The notes under the pieces: generated by a model
Told to the model about the DNA's origin: nothing
What the model saw: only the letters and a program-made list of their open reading frames with translations
Database searches by the model: none
Position numbers and translations under genes: made by a program
NCBI RefSeq assembly: GCF_022760175.1
Contig: NZ_CP094326.1
Coordinates: 3,956,804-4,020,803, forward strand
DNA: 64,000 nucleotides
From: Zhouia spongiae
Lineage (GTDB): Bacteria > Bacteroidota > Bacteroidia > Flavobacteriales > Flavobacteriaceae
Direction of reading: 5' to 3'
In this document: positions 4,328-54,345 of the stretch, one piece after another
How the letters are laid out: the number at the start of each line of letters is the position of its first letter
How positions within the stretch are numbered: position 1 is the stretch's first letter

Positions 4328-4390
4328 GTGTACATTCATCAGTATGGCCTGATAATTGTATCAGACATCGCAAACAAAACTCTTTTAGTT

Positions 4391-4888
4391 ATGAAAAATA
4401 TTATTTATTTACTCACTATTGTATCATTCGCTTTTGTTTCATGTGATGGAGACCCGGGGCCTCCGGGACTTCCCGGAGAAGACGGAGGACTGATTGTTGC
4501 CGATGCTTTTGAAATTGAAATTGATTTTACAGAAGAAAATAATTATGAACATACTGAATCCTATGGGTTTGAAGTATTTCAATACGATGTCGTACTTACC
4601 TATATCCTCTGGGAAGATAACGGCCAAGAAATATGGAGGCTTATTCCACAGGATATTTATTTGAATGAAGGCGTTTTAACCTATAATTACGACTTTACTC
4701 AGGAAGATGTTCGCATTTTTATTGACGGAACAGTTGACTTTAGCCTGTTAGAAAGCAGATGGACCCAAAATCAAGTATTCAGAGTGGTTGTAGTACCTGC
4801 TGATAATGTTGATGCTTCTATTGATTTTTCCAATTACAATAACGTAATCCAATCTTTAAACATCAAGGATGTACGAAAATTAAAGTAA
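4391..4888 (+). CDS. Collagen-like lipoprotein, second tandem paralogue
   Basis: A 165-residue lipoprotein, lipobox FVSC, then G-x-y triplets (GDP GPP GLP GED) and the same C-terminal domain as the neighbour at 3727: QEIWRLIPQDIY, TYNYDFTQED and FRVVVVPAD. The start is placed at ATG 4391, because the signal peptide (MKNIIYLLTIVSFAFVSC) begins there; an upstream in-frame ATG at 4328 would put 21 unrelated residues before it and lies within the preceding terminator. The stop codon at 4886-4888 falls inside the left end of a dispersed repeat (see 4885). Function unknown. Confidence 0.8.
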   Translation: MKNIIYLLTIVSFAFVSCDGDPGPPGLPGEDGGLIVADAFEIEIDFTEENNYEHTESYGFEVFQYDVVLTYILWEDNGQEIWRLIPQDIYLNEGVLTYNYDFTQEDVRIFIDGTVDFSLLESRWTQNQVFRVVVVPADNVDASIDFSNYNNVIQSLNIKDVRKLK

Positions 4889-4979
4889 ACTACCTCGGTG
4901 CAAGCACACGAGGCATTGGTCGGAAACAAATTTTAATTTCGAGGCAAGCCTCGGGGTATTATACCCTTTGGCGGTGCCA
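4885..4979 (+). repeat. Dispersed intergenic repeat, copy A (left-end type)
   Basis: Starts with GTAAACTACCTCGG, identical to the left end of the copy at 13301, followed by CAAG...ACGAGG as in that copy. Further right it has a perfect hairpin CGAGGcaagCCTCG (about 4940-4953), which looks like an inverted second left end, and GGGTATtATACCC. The right-end palindrome found in the other copies is missing. The first bases supply the TAA stop of the gene ending at 4888. Confidence 0.6.
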
Positions 4980-5031
4980 ATAAATATTTGCCTTTTAAAA
5001 AAATATTTATTTAACGGTCTTTATAAGCGCT

Positions 5032-5067
5032 GAAAACTCCGATATAAAATCGGAGTTTTCTGTTTTT
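5032..5067 (+). terminator. Rho-independent terminator after second paralogue
   Basis: A 12-bp perfect stem GAAAACTCCGAT / ATCGGAGTTTTC with a 5-nt loop, followed by TGTTTTTG. It lies between the repeat and the broken third paralogue. Confidence 0.75.
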
Positions 5068-5101
5068 GTGCTTTTTTTAAATACCTCAAAAGCACTTTAC
5101 C

Positions 5102-13299: not shown

Positions 13300-13567
13300 A
13301 GTAAACTACCTCGGGGCAAGCCTACGAGGCCTTAAAAGGAAAACCTAAAAAACATTTCAACGCAGGACAACTACGGAAAATCCAATCCGGACAGAAACAA
13401 GAAAGCAAGACACCGTAAACAGTCTTAAAGCTACCTTACAAGATTCTATAAATAAACGATAATGAATCTCTAATTAAGACTTCGTGTGTTTACAACTCGA
13501 TTAACAAGTAAACCACCTCGAAGATTTCGACAGCTGTACGGAATAAATCTCAATTATCGAGTAAATC
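13300..13567 (+). repeat. Dispersed intergenic repeat, copy B (complete, degenerate right end)
   Basis: Left end AGTAAACTACCTCGGGGCAAG and CCTACGAGG at 13300-13329; then a 19-base block (13332-13350) identical to 40355-40373 in copy D; then ATTTCAACGCAGG, as in D. A second left-end-like segment AAGTAAACCACCTCGA lies near 13506. The right end AATCTCAATTATCGAGTAAA (about 13545-13564) is a mutated form of the CTCGATnATCGAG palindrome. It fills most of the 465-base gap before lpdA; no gene is seen there. Confidence 0.6.
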
Positions 13568-15032: not shown

Positions 15033-15070
15033 TAAAATAAAACAATACCGAGATATTGGTATTAAAAATA

Positions 15071-15105
15071 AAAAAGCGGATGCTATGGCATCCGCTTTTT
15101 TATTT
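15071..15105. terminator. Bidirectional terminator between lpdA and aroQ
   Basis: Perfect 13-bp stem AAAAAGCGGATGC / GCATCCGCTTTTT with loop TATG, with T-runs on both strands. It sits between the convergent ends of lpdA and aroQ. Confidence 0.9.
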
Positions 15106-15120
15106 TTTCTCAAGTATATG

Positions 15121-15537: not shown

Positions 15538-15576
15538 ATTATTTCTTTTGGTAAAAATATGAAAATTCAGATACAA

Positions 15577-15604
15577 AAAAACGGAAGCTAACACTTCCGT
15601 TTTT
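15577..15604 (-). terminator. Terminator of the barrel gene at 15627
   Basis: Perfect 11-bp stem AAAAACGGAAG / CTTCCGTTTTT with a 6-nt loop, 23 bases past the minus-strand stop. The same stem core recurs in the terminator at 16395. Confidence 0.85.
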
Positions 15605-15626
15605 ATAAAATTTCGATGAACTATCC

Positions 15627-16283: not shown

Positions 16284-16394
16284 CATATTACAAGTAGGTA
16301 AAATCTTAATTATTTGCTAATTTAATTAAGTTTAGTAAGATTTTAACAACACAGGTGCTCGTCATTTTTTTATAGTAATGAGATAAACGCATAA

Positions 16395-16422
16395 AAAAAC
16401 GGAAGCAAAAGCTTCCGTTTTT
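16395..16422 (-). terminator. Terminator of the barrel gene at 16446
   Basis: Perfect 12-bp stem AAAAACGGAAGC / GCTTCCGTTTTT with a 4-nt loop and flanking A/T runs, 24 bases past the minus-strand stop. Confidence 0.88.
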
Positions 16423-16445
16423 AAAATATATTTTCTTAATCCTGA

Positions 16446-21445: not shown

Positions 21446-21653
21446 GAAATCTACCTTGAAGCATGTTCGCGAGGCGCTCCCCTGTATAACCACAGGGGAA
21501 CATGTTAAACGGAAGAACCCTAAAGACCATTTGGACGTAAGTACCGTGAAATTCTTTCAGGAATATTCCAAAAGGTCAAGTCCTGTGAAATTCCTTTAGG
21601 AACATTTCACAAGCGCAAGCGTCGGAGCATTTAAATCTCGATGATCGAGTAAA
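21446..21653 (+). repeat. Dispersed intergenic repeat, copy C (complete)
   Basis: The left end is a diverged CTACCTTGAAGCATG..CGCGAGG. The interior holds two tandem units of 39-nt period starting at 21546 and 21585, each GTGAAATTC.TT.AGGAA.ATT.CA.AAG..CAAG and each able to fold as a hairpin. The right end at 21616-21653 (ending CTCGATGATCGAGTAAA) is identical over 38 bases to the reverse complement of 53932-53969. It sits between two convergent genes. The rest of the gap (21654-21889) holds no gene that I can see. Confidence 0.7.
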
Positions 21654-40298: not shown

Positions 40299-40326
40299 AA
40301 TATCAATTTAATTGTTCCAGGGGTCA

Positions 40327-40473
40327 TACTCCCTCGGAGCAAACTCGTGAGGTATTAAAAGGAAAACCTAAAATGTATTTCGACGCAGGCCCAGTGAAAT
40401 TCCTTCAGAAACATTTCATAAAGGCAAGCTCCCGATTTCTATACAGGATAAACTAAACTCTCGATTATCGAGT
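40327..40473 (+). repeat. Dispersed intergenic repeat, copy D
   Basis: Left end ACTCCCTCGGAGCAAACTCGTGAGG; a 19-base block at 40355-40373 identical to copy B; one hairpin unit AGTGAAATTCCTTCAGAAAC (about 40393-40412) of the type in copy C; right-end palindrome CTCGATTATCGAG at 40460-40472 followed by TAAA. It lies between two minus-strand genes (YceI and porin), next to the porin terminator. Confidence 0.65.
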
Positions 40474-40511
40474 AAAAACTCCGCAATTCTCTTCTAAATC
40501 ACGGAGTTTTT
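40474..40511 (-). terminator. Terminator of the porin gene
   Basis: Perfect 10-bp stem AAAAACTCCG / CGGAGTTTTT, 18-nt loop, 39 bases past the minus-strand stop. It directly abuts the right end of repeat copy D. Confidence 0.75.
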
Positions 40512-40549
40512 ATATTCAATATTCAGTAGATATCCGGTATTTATTGTTT

Positions 40550-53931: not shown

Positions 53932-54142
53932 TTTACTCGATCATCGAGATTTAAATGCTCCGACGCTTGCCCTTGTGAAAAATTTCATTGGACTTGCCCT
54001 TGTGAAATCCTCCTGAGCGGAATCTCATAGGGCTTTCGGCGAAATGTTTTGCCATGCGCCAGCTCATTCCATCGCTAAAAAGGGCTACCAGACCTTTTCT
54101 TTACACTTGGCCCTCTCGTGGGTTTGCCCCGAGGTAGTTTAC
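53932..54142 (-). repeat. Dispersed intergenic repeat, copy E (complete, inverted)
   Basis: Read on the minus strand it starts GTAAACTACCTCGGGGCAAAC (left end, 54142 downwards) and ends with CTCGATGATCGAGTAAA (53932). Its last 38 bases are identical to 21616-21653 of copy C. The interior contains TTTCACAAGGGCAAG twice in tandem, as in the unit of copy C, plus about 80 bases not shared with the others. It lies between the XdhC gene and the H1-like gene. Confidence 0.72.
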
Positions 54143-54345
54143 CCGGAGAATAAAAAATACGGGCGCTTATGTTTACCCAAACTTACCCGGCGCCCGTATA
54201 GAAGTGAACATTAAATCTATTCAGGCCGAATATAGCGCTTCAAACGCAATAAGCACAGATCATAATCGATGAAATGCACATATATTAGATAAAATATTAA
54301 AAGGCGTATTTTACACTTATATCCTTAAAAGGGAAGGATATGATA

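Follow-up and report, generated by a model that had tools for sequence, protein, structure and literature searches.

The stretch of the Zhouia spongiae genome analysed here (the window, 64,000 nucleotides in length) contains a repeat in five copies. What kind of element is this, and by what means has it been dispersed? When only the sequence was considered it had been taken for something mobile, non-coding and structured (MITE- or REP-like), or else for a transcribed structured RNA. We have therefore examined the anatomy of the copies, their number and orientation in the whole genome, and their relationship to transposons of the Flavobacteriaceae.

Copies in the window and in the genome

All five repeats are present in the window, with a similarity far above chance. 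They are named A to E, and their features are collected in Table 1. The limits are close to those first proposed for copies A (4885-4984, against 4885-4979), B (13301-13565, against 13300-13567) and D (about 40322-40476, against 40327-40473), and those of C (21446-21653, with a decayed left end) and E (53932-54142, minus strand) are unchanged. The identity of 38 bases between 21616-21653 and 53932-53969 is real, and belongs to a 49-nt match at 98%. The sequence shared by positions 13332-13350 is likewise real, and sits within a 62-nt, 79% match to the copy at 40328. The left hairpin and the GTGAAATTCC...ATTTCAC units are also confirmed; copies C and E have two units each, and in E one is shortened.

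Two statements of the sequence-only reading hold in part. The right end CTCGATnATCGAGTAAA exists, but it is not common to all five copies, as copy A has no CTCGATnATCGAG end. Copy A is of a different subtype of 100 nt that terminates ...GGTGCCAATAAA, and is one of eight identical copies in the genome. All copies had been called intergenic. This is correct for four of them, which lie between ORFs of at least 80 aa, but copy A overlaps the end of a gene, the TAA stop of ORF 4328-4888 falling inside its GTAAA motif. Copy B is rearranged internally, with a second left-end-like sequence GTAAACCACCTCG at 13508-13520.

Terminator-like hairpins of a neighboring gene are found close to three of the five copies (window 4984-5080, 40476-40515 and 54142-54215), and landing beside hairpins may be a preference of the element. 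Elsewhere in the window there are three alike A-tract hairpins (15070-15106, 15575-15611 and 16393-16429; e.g. AAAAAAACGGAAGC...GCTTCCGTTTTT) that are probably intrinsic terminators of the neighboring genes.

Table 1. The five copies and their parts, numbered by position in the window
Feature	Position	Strand	Basis or remark
Copy A, short subtype S, complete, 100 nt	4885..4984	+ (top strand of the sequence-only reading; putative active strand is the complement)	identical to 7 others in the genome
hp1 of copy A, CCTCGGTG-CAAG-CAC-A-CGAGG, CAAG loop, bulged A (bulged T on putative active strand)	4893..4913	+	fold; compensatory changes among 81 sequences
hp2 of copy A, CGAGG-CAAG-CCTCG	4940..4953	+	fold; hairpins of similar kind at the opposite end of IS200 elements
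Right motif ATAAA of copy A (TTTAT on putative active strand), putative cleavage/target side	4980..4984	+	end motifs, guide pairing
Copy B, composite/diverged, 265 nt, hp1 at 13309-13329, right motif GTAAA	13301..13565	+	sequence reading
Copy C, decayed left end, two tandem U units	21446..21653	+	sequence reading
U unit 1 of copy C, 39 nt, ends CAAG, TAAG before	21542..21580	+	sequence reading
U unit 2 of copy C, 39 nt, CAAG at either side	21581..21619	+	sequence reading
hp3 (CTCGATGATCGAG) and right motif GTAAA of copy C	21637..21653	+	right-end pattern
Copy D, M-like subtype, one U unit, hp1 at 40332-40352, right motif GTAAA adjoining a terminator-like hairpin	40322..40476	+	copy absent at the Z. 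amylolytica site
Copy E, subtype L (long), with hp1 at 54115-54134 and two U units, of which one is shortened	53932..54142	-	copy absent at the Z. amylolytica site

The genome-wide search that had been proposed as a check finds many further copies. With up to three mismatches the left-end pattern gives 65 matches in the whole genome, and the reversed-pattern control gives none. The right-end pattern gives 116 matches (control 1), and that of the internal unit 106 (control 0). Clusters were built from 281 places, including 100 of the 116 right ends, 100 of the 106 units and 16 of the 50 BLAST places. They correspond to at least 139 loci in the 4.04-Mb single-contig genome, a lower bound because not all end, unit and BLAST places entered the grouping; the window, which occupies positions 3956804-4020803 of it, contains just five of these. 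All 139 clusters were extracted and 87 could be delimited at both sides. The other 52 look truncated, diverged, recombined or beyond the end patterns; they are outside the end statistics and inside the count of orientation, where the strand of a cluster is that of the majority of its matches. At 244.8-248.2 kb of the genome two loci 2.3 kb apart (L193 and L194) have near-identical left flanks and the same truncated element in each, probably a tandem duplication that included the element.

The elements are mostly 70-265 nt in size. The delimited copies are 62-265 nt, apart from one row (L244, 355 nt) that was over-extended by the delimiting pattern, and the 87 copies total 13,904 nt with a mean of about 160 nt. 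They are too short to encode a transposase, and there is no tnpA within the element. There are no terminal inverted repeats; by eye the ends share only a tetranucleotide motif and hairpins with CAAG loops. The usual order in a complete copy, read on the top strand, is GTAA-ACTA-hp1 ... hp2 ... end hairpin(s)-NTAAA, with an exact GTAAA start in 68 of the 87 copies and a GTAAA or ATAAA end in 69. Three forms exist, S of 100 nt, M of about 139 nt, and L mostly of 180-240 nt. In subtypes M and L, hp2 is followed by CTCGATnATCGAG and then GTAAA. In subtype S the hairpins GGTATTATACC and TTGGCGGTGCCAA come after it, and the copy ends in AATAAA. There are 17 copies of S, two of them extended to 139 nt by a U unit; eight are identical, and the S copies look recent.

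Comparison with a sister species is consistent with insertion. For one gene located between copies A and B the closest relative, 76% identical, is in Z. amylolytica CGMCC 1.6114, among records that may exclude the genome of the window itself. The left end gives no match in Z. amylolytica with up to two mismatches. The genes flanking all five window copies align with that genome, and the copies are absent there in five of five cases. At the 4885 site the alignment stops at 4888 and restarts at 5033, and the Z. amylolytica counterpart is 46 nt; at the 21446, 40327 and 53932 sites the gaps there are 54, 78 and 77 nt respectively. At the 13301 site Z. amylolytica carries one GTAAATCC where the copy ends GTAAATCC, but upstream of it that genome has about 2.6 kb of other sequence, and the left flank is unalignable. 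Divergence of the intergenic DNA prevents the insertions from being placed to the base. At this resolution the tetranucleotide motif is present at both ends of the element, and no target duplication is seen beyond it.

End hairpins, guide sequences and IS200 relatives

The consensus of hp1 is CCTCGGNG-CAAG-CNC-A-CGAG(G), with a CAAG loop and a single bulged A, and hp2 is typically CGACG-CAAG-CGTCG or CGAGG-CAAG-CCTCG. We aligned 81 distinct hp1 sequences, from MITEs of several genomes and some IS elements, after removal of three rows with a CAAG-recombined 3' arm and omission of the second match of L367 from the 82 left. In these, 87.2% of the pair cells are paired against a shuffled mean of 78.6, and there are 60 double-change cells against 17.7 in shuffles, a value reached in 0 of 500. 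The number of pairs that carry double changes is 6, which is not clearly above the shuffles (4.3; 72 of 500 reach 6). In the consensus fold of subtype L the covariation term is only -0.09 kcal/mol, with 4 of 43 pairs. The single-strand DNA fold of the elements is better than that of shuffles (z about -2.8 to -2.9), which fits DNA and RNA readings alike.

In IS608 the cleavage sites TTAC and TCAA pair with guides AAAG and GAAT located 5' of the hairpins (available part of PMC5934647). We have read the corresponding positions of the repeat on the complement of the top strand. On that strand the CATT after hp1 of copy A is a guide AATG, and the TATT that follows hp2 and GGG is a guide AATA. A total of 89 ends were scored, comprising 35 of IS elements, 48 of MITEs in other genomes, and 6 consensus or example ends of Z. 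spongiae. The motif and foot positions were picked by hand from the sequence (the right motif by its TAA), the motifs of two of the 19 IS loci and of the locus L377 were entered by hand, and the ends are not phylogenetically independent. The last base of the cleavage site is complementary to the last base of the guide in 78 of the 89 ends (20,000 shuffles: mean 33.2, maximum 50). Position 2 of the cleavage site is complementary to position 1 of the guide in the same number, 78 of 89 (shuffle mean 55.0, maximum 67). The main cleavage/guide pairs are TTAC/AATG (26), TCAT/GATA (15), TTAA/AATT (13) and TTAT/AATA (11). The 11 ends that fail at position 4 are 1 of the 35 IS ends and 10 of the 54 MITE ends, so that 44 of the latter match. 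For the MITE ends alone the 2-1 match occurs in 46 of 54, no better than shuffles (mean 46.3), and the support at this position therefore comes from the IS elements.

A guide complementary to the cleavage site is thus found at both ends of the element. The exception is the hp1 side of subtype L, the largest subfamily, where the foot is AGGG in place of CATT and the guide is gone. Within Z. spongiae, copies with the hp2-foot guide AATA end in TTAT in 16 cases and TTAC in 3, and those with AATG end in TTAC in 31 and TTAT in 1 (P = 2e-9 for the contrast); 30 of the 87 copies have no readable hp2 foot and 6 more fall outside this two-by-two table. As S and L/M are two lineages, the test amounts to approximately one contrast. 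The top strand was also considered as the active strand, and was rejected. There the tetranucleotide 5' of hp1, mostly ACTA, does not change with the end motif (ATGA or GTAA), whereas the complement yields the pairing code and the expected bias to the lagging template.

Of 199 Flavobacteriaceae genomes 13 carry the left end, Z. spongiae being one of them. Among 30 left-end loci inspected, 24 come from other MITE-bearing genomes, and these consist simply of hp1, hp2 and end hairpins, with no U unit seen in them. In one genome (G007) the left-end matches read form one end of IS200-type transposons, with hp1 3' of tnpA and an hp2-like hairpin (CCCGACGCAAGCATCGGGGAATTC) 5' of it. The IS200 tnpA elements of G007, G144 and G088 share this arrangement, an hp1 end opposite an end with an hp2-like hairpin. 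NCBIfam assigns the three TnpA proteins of this clade that were tested to the IS200/IS605 family transposases, with 128-129 bits against a cut-off of 55. A profile of four clade TnpAs is found in 26 of 397 Flavobacteriaceae genomes at E<=1e-20. In 28 tnpA loci read manually there is an hp1-type end in 19 and an hp2-type end in 16, and both in only 14; the remaining loci are fragments, decayed or more distant. One decayed tnpA copy with two stops (L377, in genome G372) carries the end motifs of subtype S, GTAAA and GGGGCATT flanking tnpA at one end and CCTCGGGGTATT ... AATAAA at the opposite end. By these comparisons the ends of the miniature elements are related to those of IS200/IS605 transposons.

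Many IS200 tnpA fragments were also observed at contig ends of another genome (G117, and locus L380), one of them with the end CCTCGGGGCAAGCCCCGAGGCATT; they are probably from a high-copy IS of the same clade. Copy A has no match in phages or plasmids, and neither a left-end nor a right-end pattern was matched exactly in viral contigs.

Orientation with replication and the nested U unit

IS200/IS605 elements preferentially leave and enter the template of the lagging strand, so that their orientation follows replication (available part of PMC5371812). In Z. spongiae the flanks, taken in 16 bins, have a positive GC skew between 1.26 and 3.03 Mb and a negative one in the rest of the genome. All three 16S genes (plus strand at 1.82 and 2.39 Mb, minus strand at 3.61 Mb) agree with forks that run from the first limit (1.26 Mb) to the second (3.03 Mb). 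Over six pairs of limits the putative active strand lies on the lagging template in 94-99 of the 139 loci (P = 4e-5 to 6e-7). With limits at the edges of the skew bins (1.26 Mb) the count is 94 (P = 4e-5). It is 98 (P = 1.5e-6) with limits of 1.4 and 3.03 Mb, the former of which was chosen after the table of orientations had been seen; the limits of the replichores are coarse. When 200 kb around the latter limits are excluded, 76 of 108 loci agree. All 17 copies of subtype S, the young copies, have the putative active strand on the lagging template (P = 1.5e-5), as do 81 of the 122 other loci (P = 4e-4).

The direction of genes does not seem to explain this bias, because the arrangements of the neighbors are mixed and the ORFs hardly biased. 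Among 118 loci with a predicted gene on each side, 42 are co-oriented with their neighbors, 30 lie between convergent genes, in 28 both genes are opposed, and 18 lie between divergent genes. The sampled ORFs number 19 plus and 26 minus in one arm, and 59 and 61 in the other.

The internal unit, U, is a palindrome of 39 nt, about YCC NNTGAAATTCC ... GGANNATTTCAC AAGGR CAAG, located in the CAAG loop of hp2. There are 121 units in 96 of the 139 clusters, although a few fuzzy matches may be due to chance. No locus has more than two. Two units are present in 25 clusters, spaced by exactly 39 nt in 17 of them. CAAG precedes the unit exactly in 83 of the 121, and follows it exactly in at least 66. 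U is carried by two of the 17 S copies. Such copies are distinguished from an S copy that lacks it by a single unit of 39 nt within the hp2 CAAG loop and one other base change (L199 against L196, and likewise L199 against L267). In at least two clusters (L277 and L287, at about 2.972 and 3.132 Mb) U runs opposite to the element, so that long, nearly perfect palindromes arise. In six delimited copies of 93-132 nt (L216, L219, L226, L232, L285 and L312), and also in L283, the 5' half of hp1 is joined to U at CAAG/TAAG, which points to exchange at these tetranucleotides. U is seen only inside these elements or their remnants. Among 397 Flavobacteriaceae genomes searched it is confined to that of Z. 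spongiae, with 88 matches there and single matches with two mismatches in 5 of the 396 others.

At three loci (L197 at about 356.6 kb, and L193 and L194 at about 245 and 247 kb) other GC-rich inserts (CCCGCCTGTCCG..., TCCGCCTGAATGGAC...) adjoin U at the same CAAG of the hp2 loop.

The CAAG loop of hp2 would have gained U, at times in tandem, either by template switching at CAAG hairpins or by a second insertion event; both are possible. A tentative suggestion, which we think rather unlikely to be right, is that U is a second-order parasite, i.e. a palindromic micro-element that enters the CAAG loops of single-stranded IS200-type miniature elements and leaves CAAG on both sides. If that were true, U would be a bacterial counterpart of SMR-A inside the PATE palindromes of Haloquadratum. 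SMR-A repeats of about 110 nt insert within those palindromes by a mechanism that the authors call 'enigmatic' (available part of PMC3119063).

Origin of the repeat and comparison with known systems

The repeat is most probably, with a probability of roughly 0.86, a transposase-less derivative of the IS200/IS605 family (a PATE, or single-strand MITE) that is moved as single-stranded DNA. We base this on comparison of sequences, i.e. on the IS200-type ends, the guide pairing like that of IS608, the orientation tied to replication, the absence of the copies in Z. amylolytica, and the compensatory changes in hp1. A Y1 (HUH) TnpA acting in trans would bind hp1 and hp2 on the template of the lagging strand. 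The guides would present the cleavage sites, and the element would leave as a single-stranded circle. Insertion 3' of TTAC (TTAT for subtype S) in another single-stranded lagging template would then lead to over a hundred copies. An autonomous IS200/IS605 element was considered and rejected, since the delimited copies have no tnpA inside.

Which enzyme would do this in Z. spongiae? The Y1 transposase profile PF01797 gives no match in the genome at E<=0.001, and that of the clade TnpAs gives none at the strict limit of E<=1e-20. The same PF01797 search detects two RAYTs of Z. amylolytica. Among 12 other genomes with left ends, five are also without a PF01797 match. It is possible that the enzyme has been lost, lies outside the assembly on another replicon, or is divergent and missed by the profiles.

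Alternatively, the same element might be moved by an unrecognized transposase unlike PF01797, in Z. spongiae and in those five genomes (G152, G080, G179, G100 and G073). The six copy-bearing genomes free of a PF01797 match would agree with this, as would the recent activity to which the eight identical S copies and the 17/17 orientation point. But loss of the enzyme or its location on a plasmid explains the same facts. A different enzyme is also unnecessary, because the guide code and the ends match Y1-type IS200 elements. We consider this explanation distinctly improbable.

Dispersal as REP or REPIN-type repeats by a RAYT encoded once in the genome is most unlikely. Bulged hairpins, high copy number and intergenic position are all features that such repeats would have, and RAYTs are known within the family, in Z. 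amylolytica among others. Yet PF01797 is absent from Z. spongiae in a search that detects the RAYTs of its relative, and the ends of the repeat match IS200 tnpA elements. Twelve Y1-type loci, RAYT-like or of weak score, have no match to hp1 or hp3, and several have other palindromes adjoining. A RAYT with matching ends had been suggested as something to look for; none flanked by the repeat (GTAAACTACCTCGG ends) was found in the Z. spongiae genome or at the RAYT loci read. The two RAYT genes of Z. amylolytica (L121 and L122, on contigs C9 and C8) are flanked by several copies of the palindrome CCACACGAAAGGATTCGTGCGGTAGCGAGG, a REP family unlike this repeat. The original description as a mobile, non-coding, structured element is correct in kind, but a link to REP sequences and RAYTs is not supported.

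The other suggestion made at the outset was a transcribed structured RNA, which in its conserved form would be a riboregulator or attenuator copied many times. The compensatory changes in hp1, the stable folds and the proximity of the copies to genes would all accord with that. The wobble-type cells of hp1 might also seem to do so, as C.A (a wobble on the complementary strand) exceeds G.T by 66 to 29. However, the excess is due to the outermost pair, since many L copies have C.A there and this is the usual state of that subtype; the other pairs give 35 against 29, so that the cells are about equal for the two strands. This weakens the RNA explanation because a transcribed strand should favor one kind of wobble throughout. 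Furthermore, no Rfam family matches the window at the gathering score, and at a relaxed E-value five loci give only sub-threshold matches, none of them to HEARO. The neighboring genes occur in all four arrangements, the orientation is tied to the replication fork, and the five window copies are missing in the sister species. We regard an RNA of this kind as highly improbable, and this part of the sequence-only reading is not sustained.

Chance likeness of ordinary low-complexity or terminator-like intergenic DNA might be imagined for A+T-rich sequence with three copies near terminator-like hairpins, but is refuted by the pattern counts against controls (65, 116 and 106 matches against 0, 1 and 0) and by the eight identical 100-nt copies, and its probability is negligible.

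As a transposase-less IS200/IS605 derivative, the repeat would document single-strand transposition in Bacteroidota as it has occurred naturally across a genome. The base-pairing rule derived from IS608 is followed by four guide/cleavage pairings, and the orientation of the young copies with the fork is complete (17/17). Together the parents and miniature elements form a library of naturally retargeted IS200 ends. They raise the question of what moves such elements in hosts that have no recognized Y1 gene, and whether the hairpin loop of a mobile element can itself serve as a target for insertion. The kind of element is already known, and we regard the sequence evidence for the proposed mechanism as strong. 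A literature search that included sequence strings, with a coverage from which most subscription papers fall outside, found no paper on this repeat.

Classical DDE-transposon MITEs are non-autonomous, short, present in high copy number, and have terminal inverted repeats. The repeat is similar in its shortness, non-autonomy and copy number, but terminal inverted repeats are absent from its end sequences, and we have rejected a MITE of DDE type for that reason. With the REPINs and GTAG REPs associated with RAYTs, as described in the available part of PMC3733652, it has in common that they are high-copy intergenic hairpins linked to Y1-type transposases. It differs in being two-ended with guide and cleavage motifs, in having no RAYT found in the genome, and in ending with GTAA/TTAC rather than a GTAG tag at one end.

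The likeness to IS200/IS605 elements (IS608, and the Flavobacteriaceae IS200 clade, e.g. the loci L362, L365 and L377) comprises the subterminal hairpins, the pairing of guides with cleavage sites, and the kinds of hp1 and hp2. The TTAC target is also like that of IS608 (PMC5934647), and the orientation with replication like that of the family (PMC5371812), as far as the available parts of these papers describe them. Unlike these transposons the repeat has no tnpA, has extra end hairpins (hp3, or GGTATTATACC and TTGGCGGTGCCAA in subtype S), and contains nested units.

The PATEs of Haloquadratum walsbyi, as presented in the available part of PMC3119063, resemble the repeat in several respects. 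They too are too short for a transposase, have no terminal inverted repeats and exist in many copies. They have near-terminal palindromes common to IS605-type transposons, core-deleted forms, and small palindromic repeats (SMR-A) nested in the near-terminal palindromes. To judge from the same text, SMR-A has inverted terminal repeats and no target duplication, whereas U is 39 nt long, usually has CAAG on both sides, and may be tandem. The present host belongs to the Flavobacteriaceae and not to the haloarchaea, and here the pairing of guides with cleavage sites and an orientation linked to replication are both observed.
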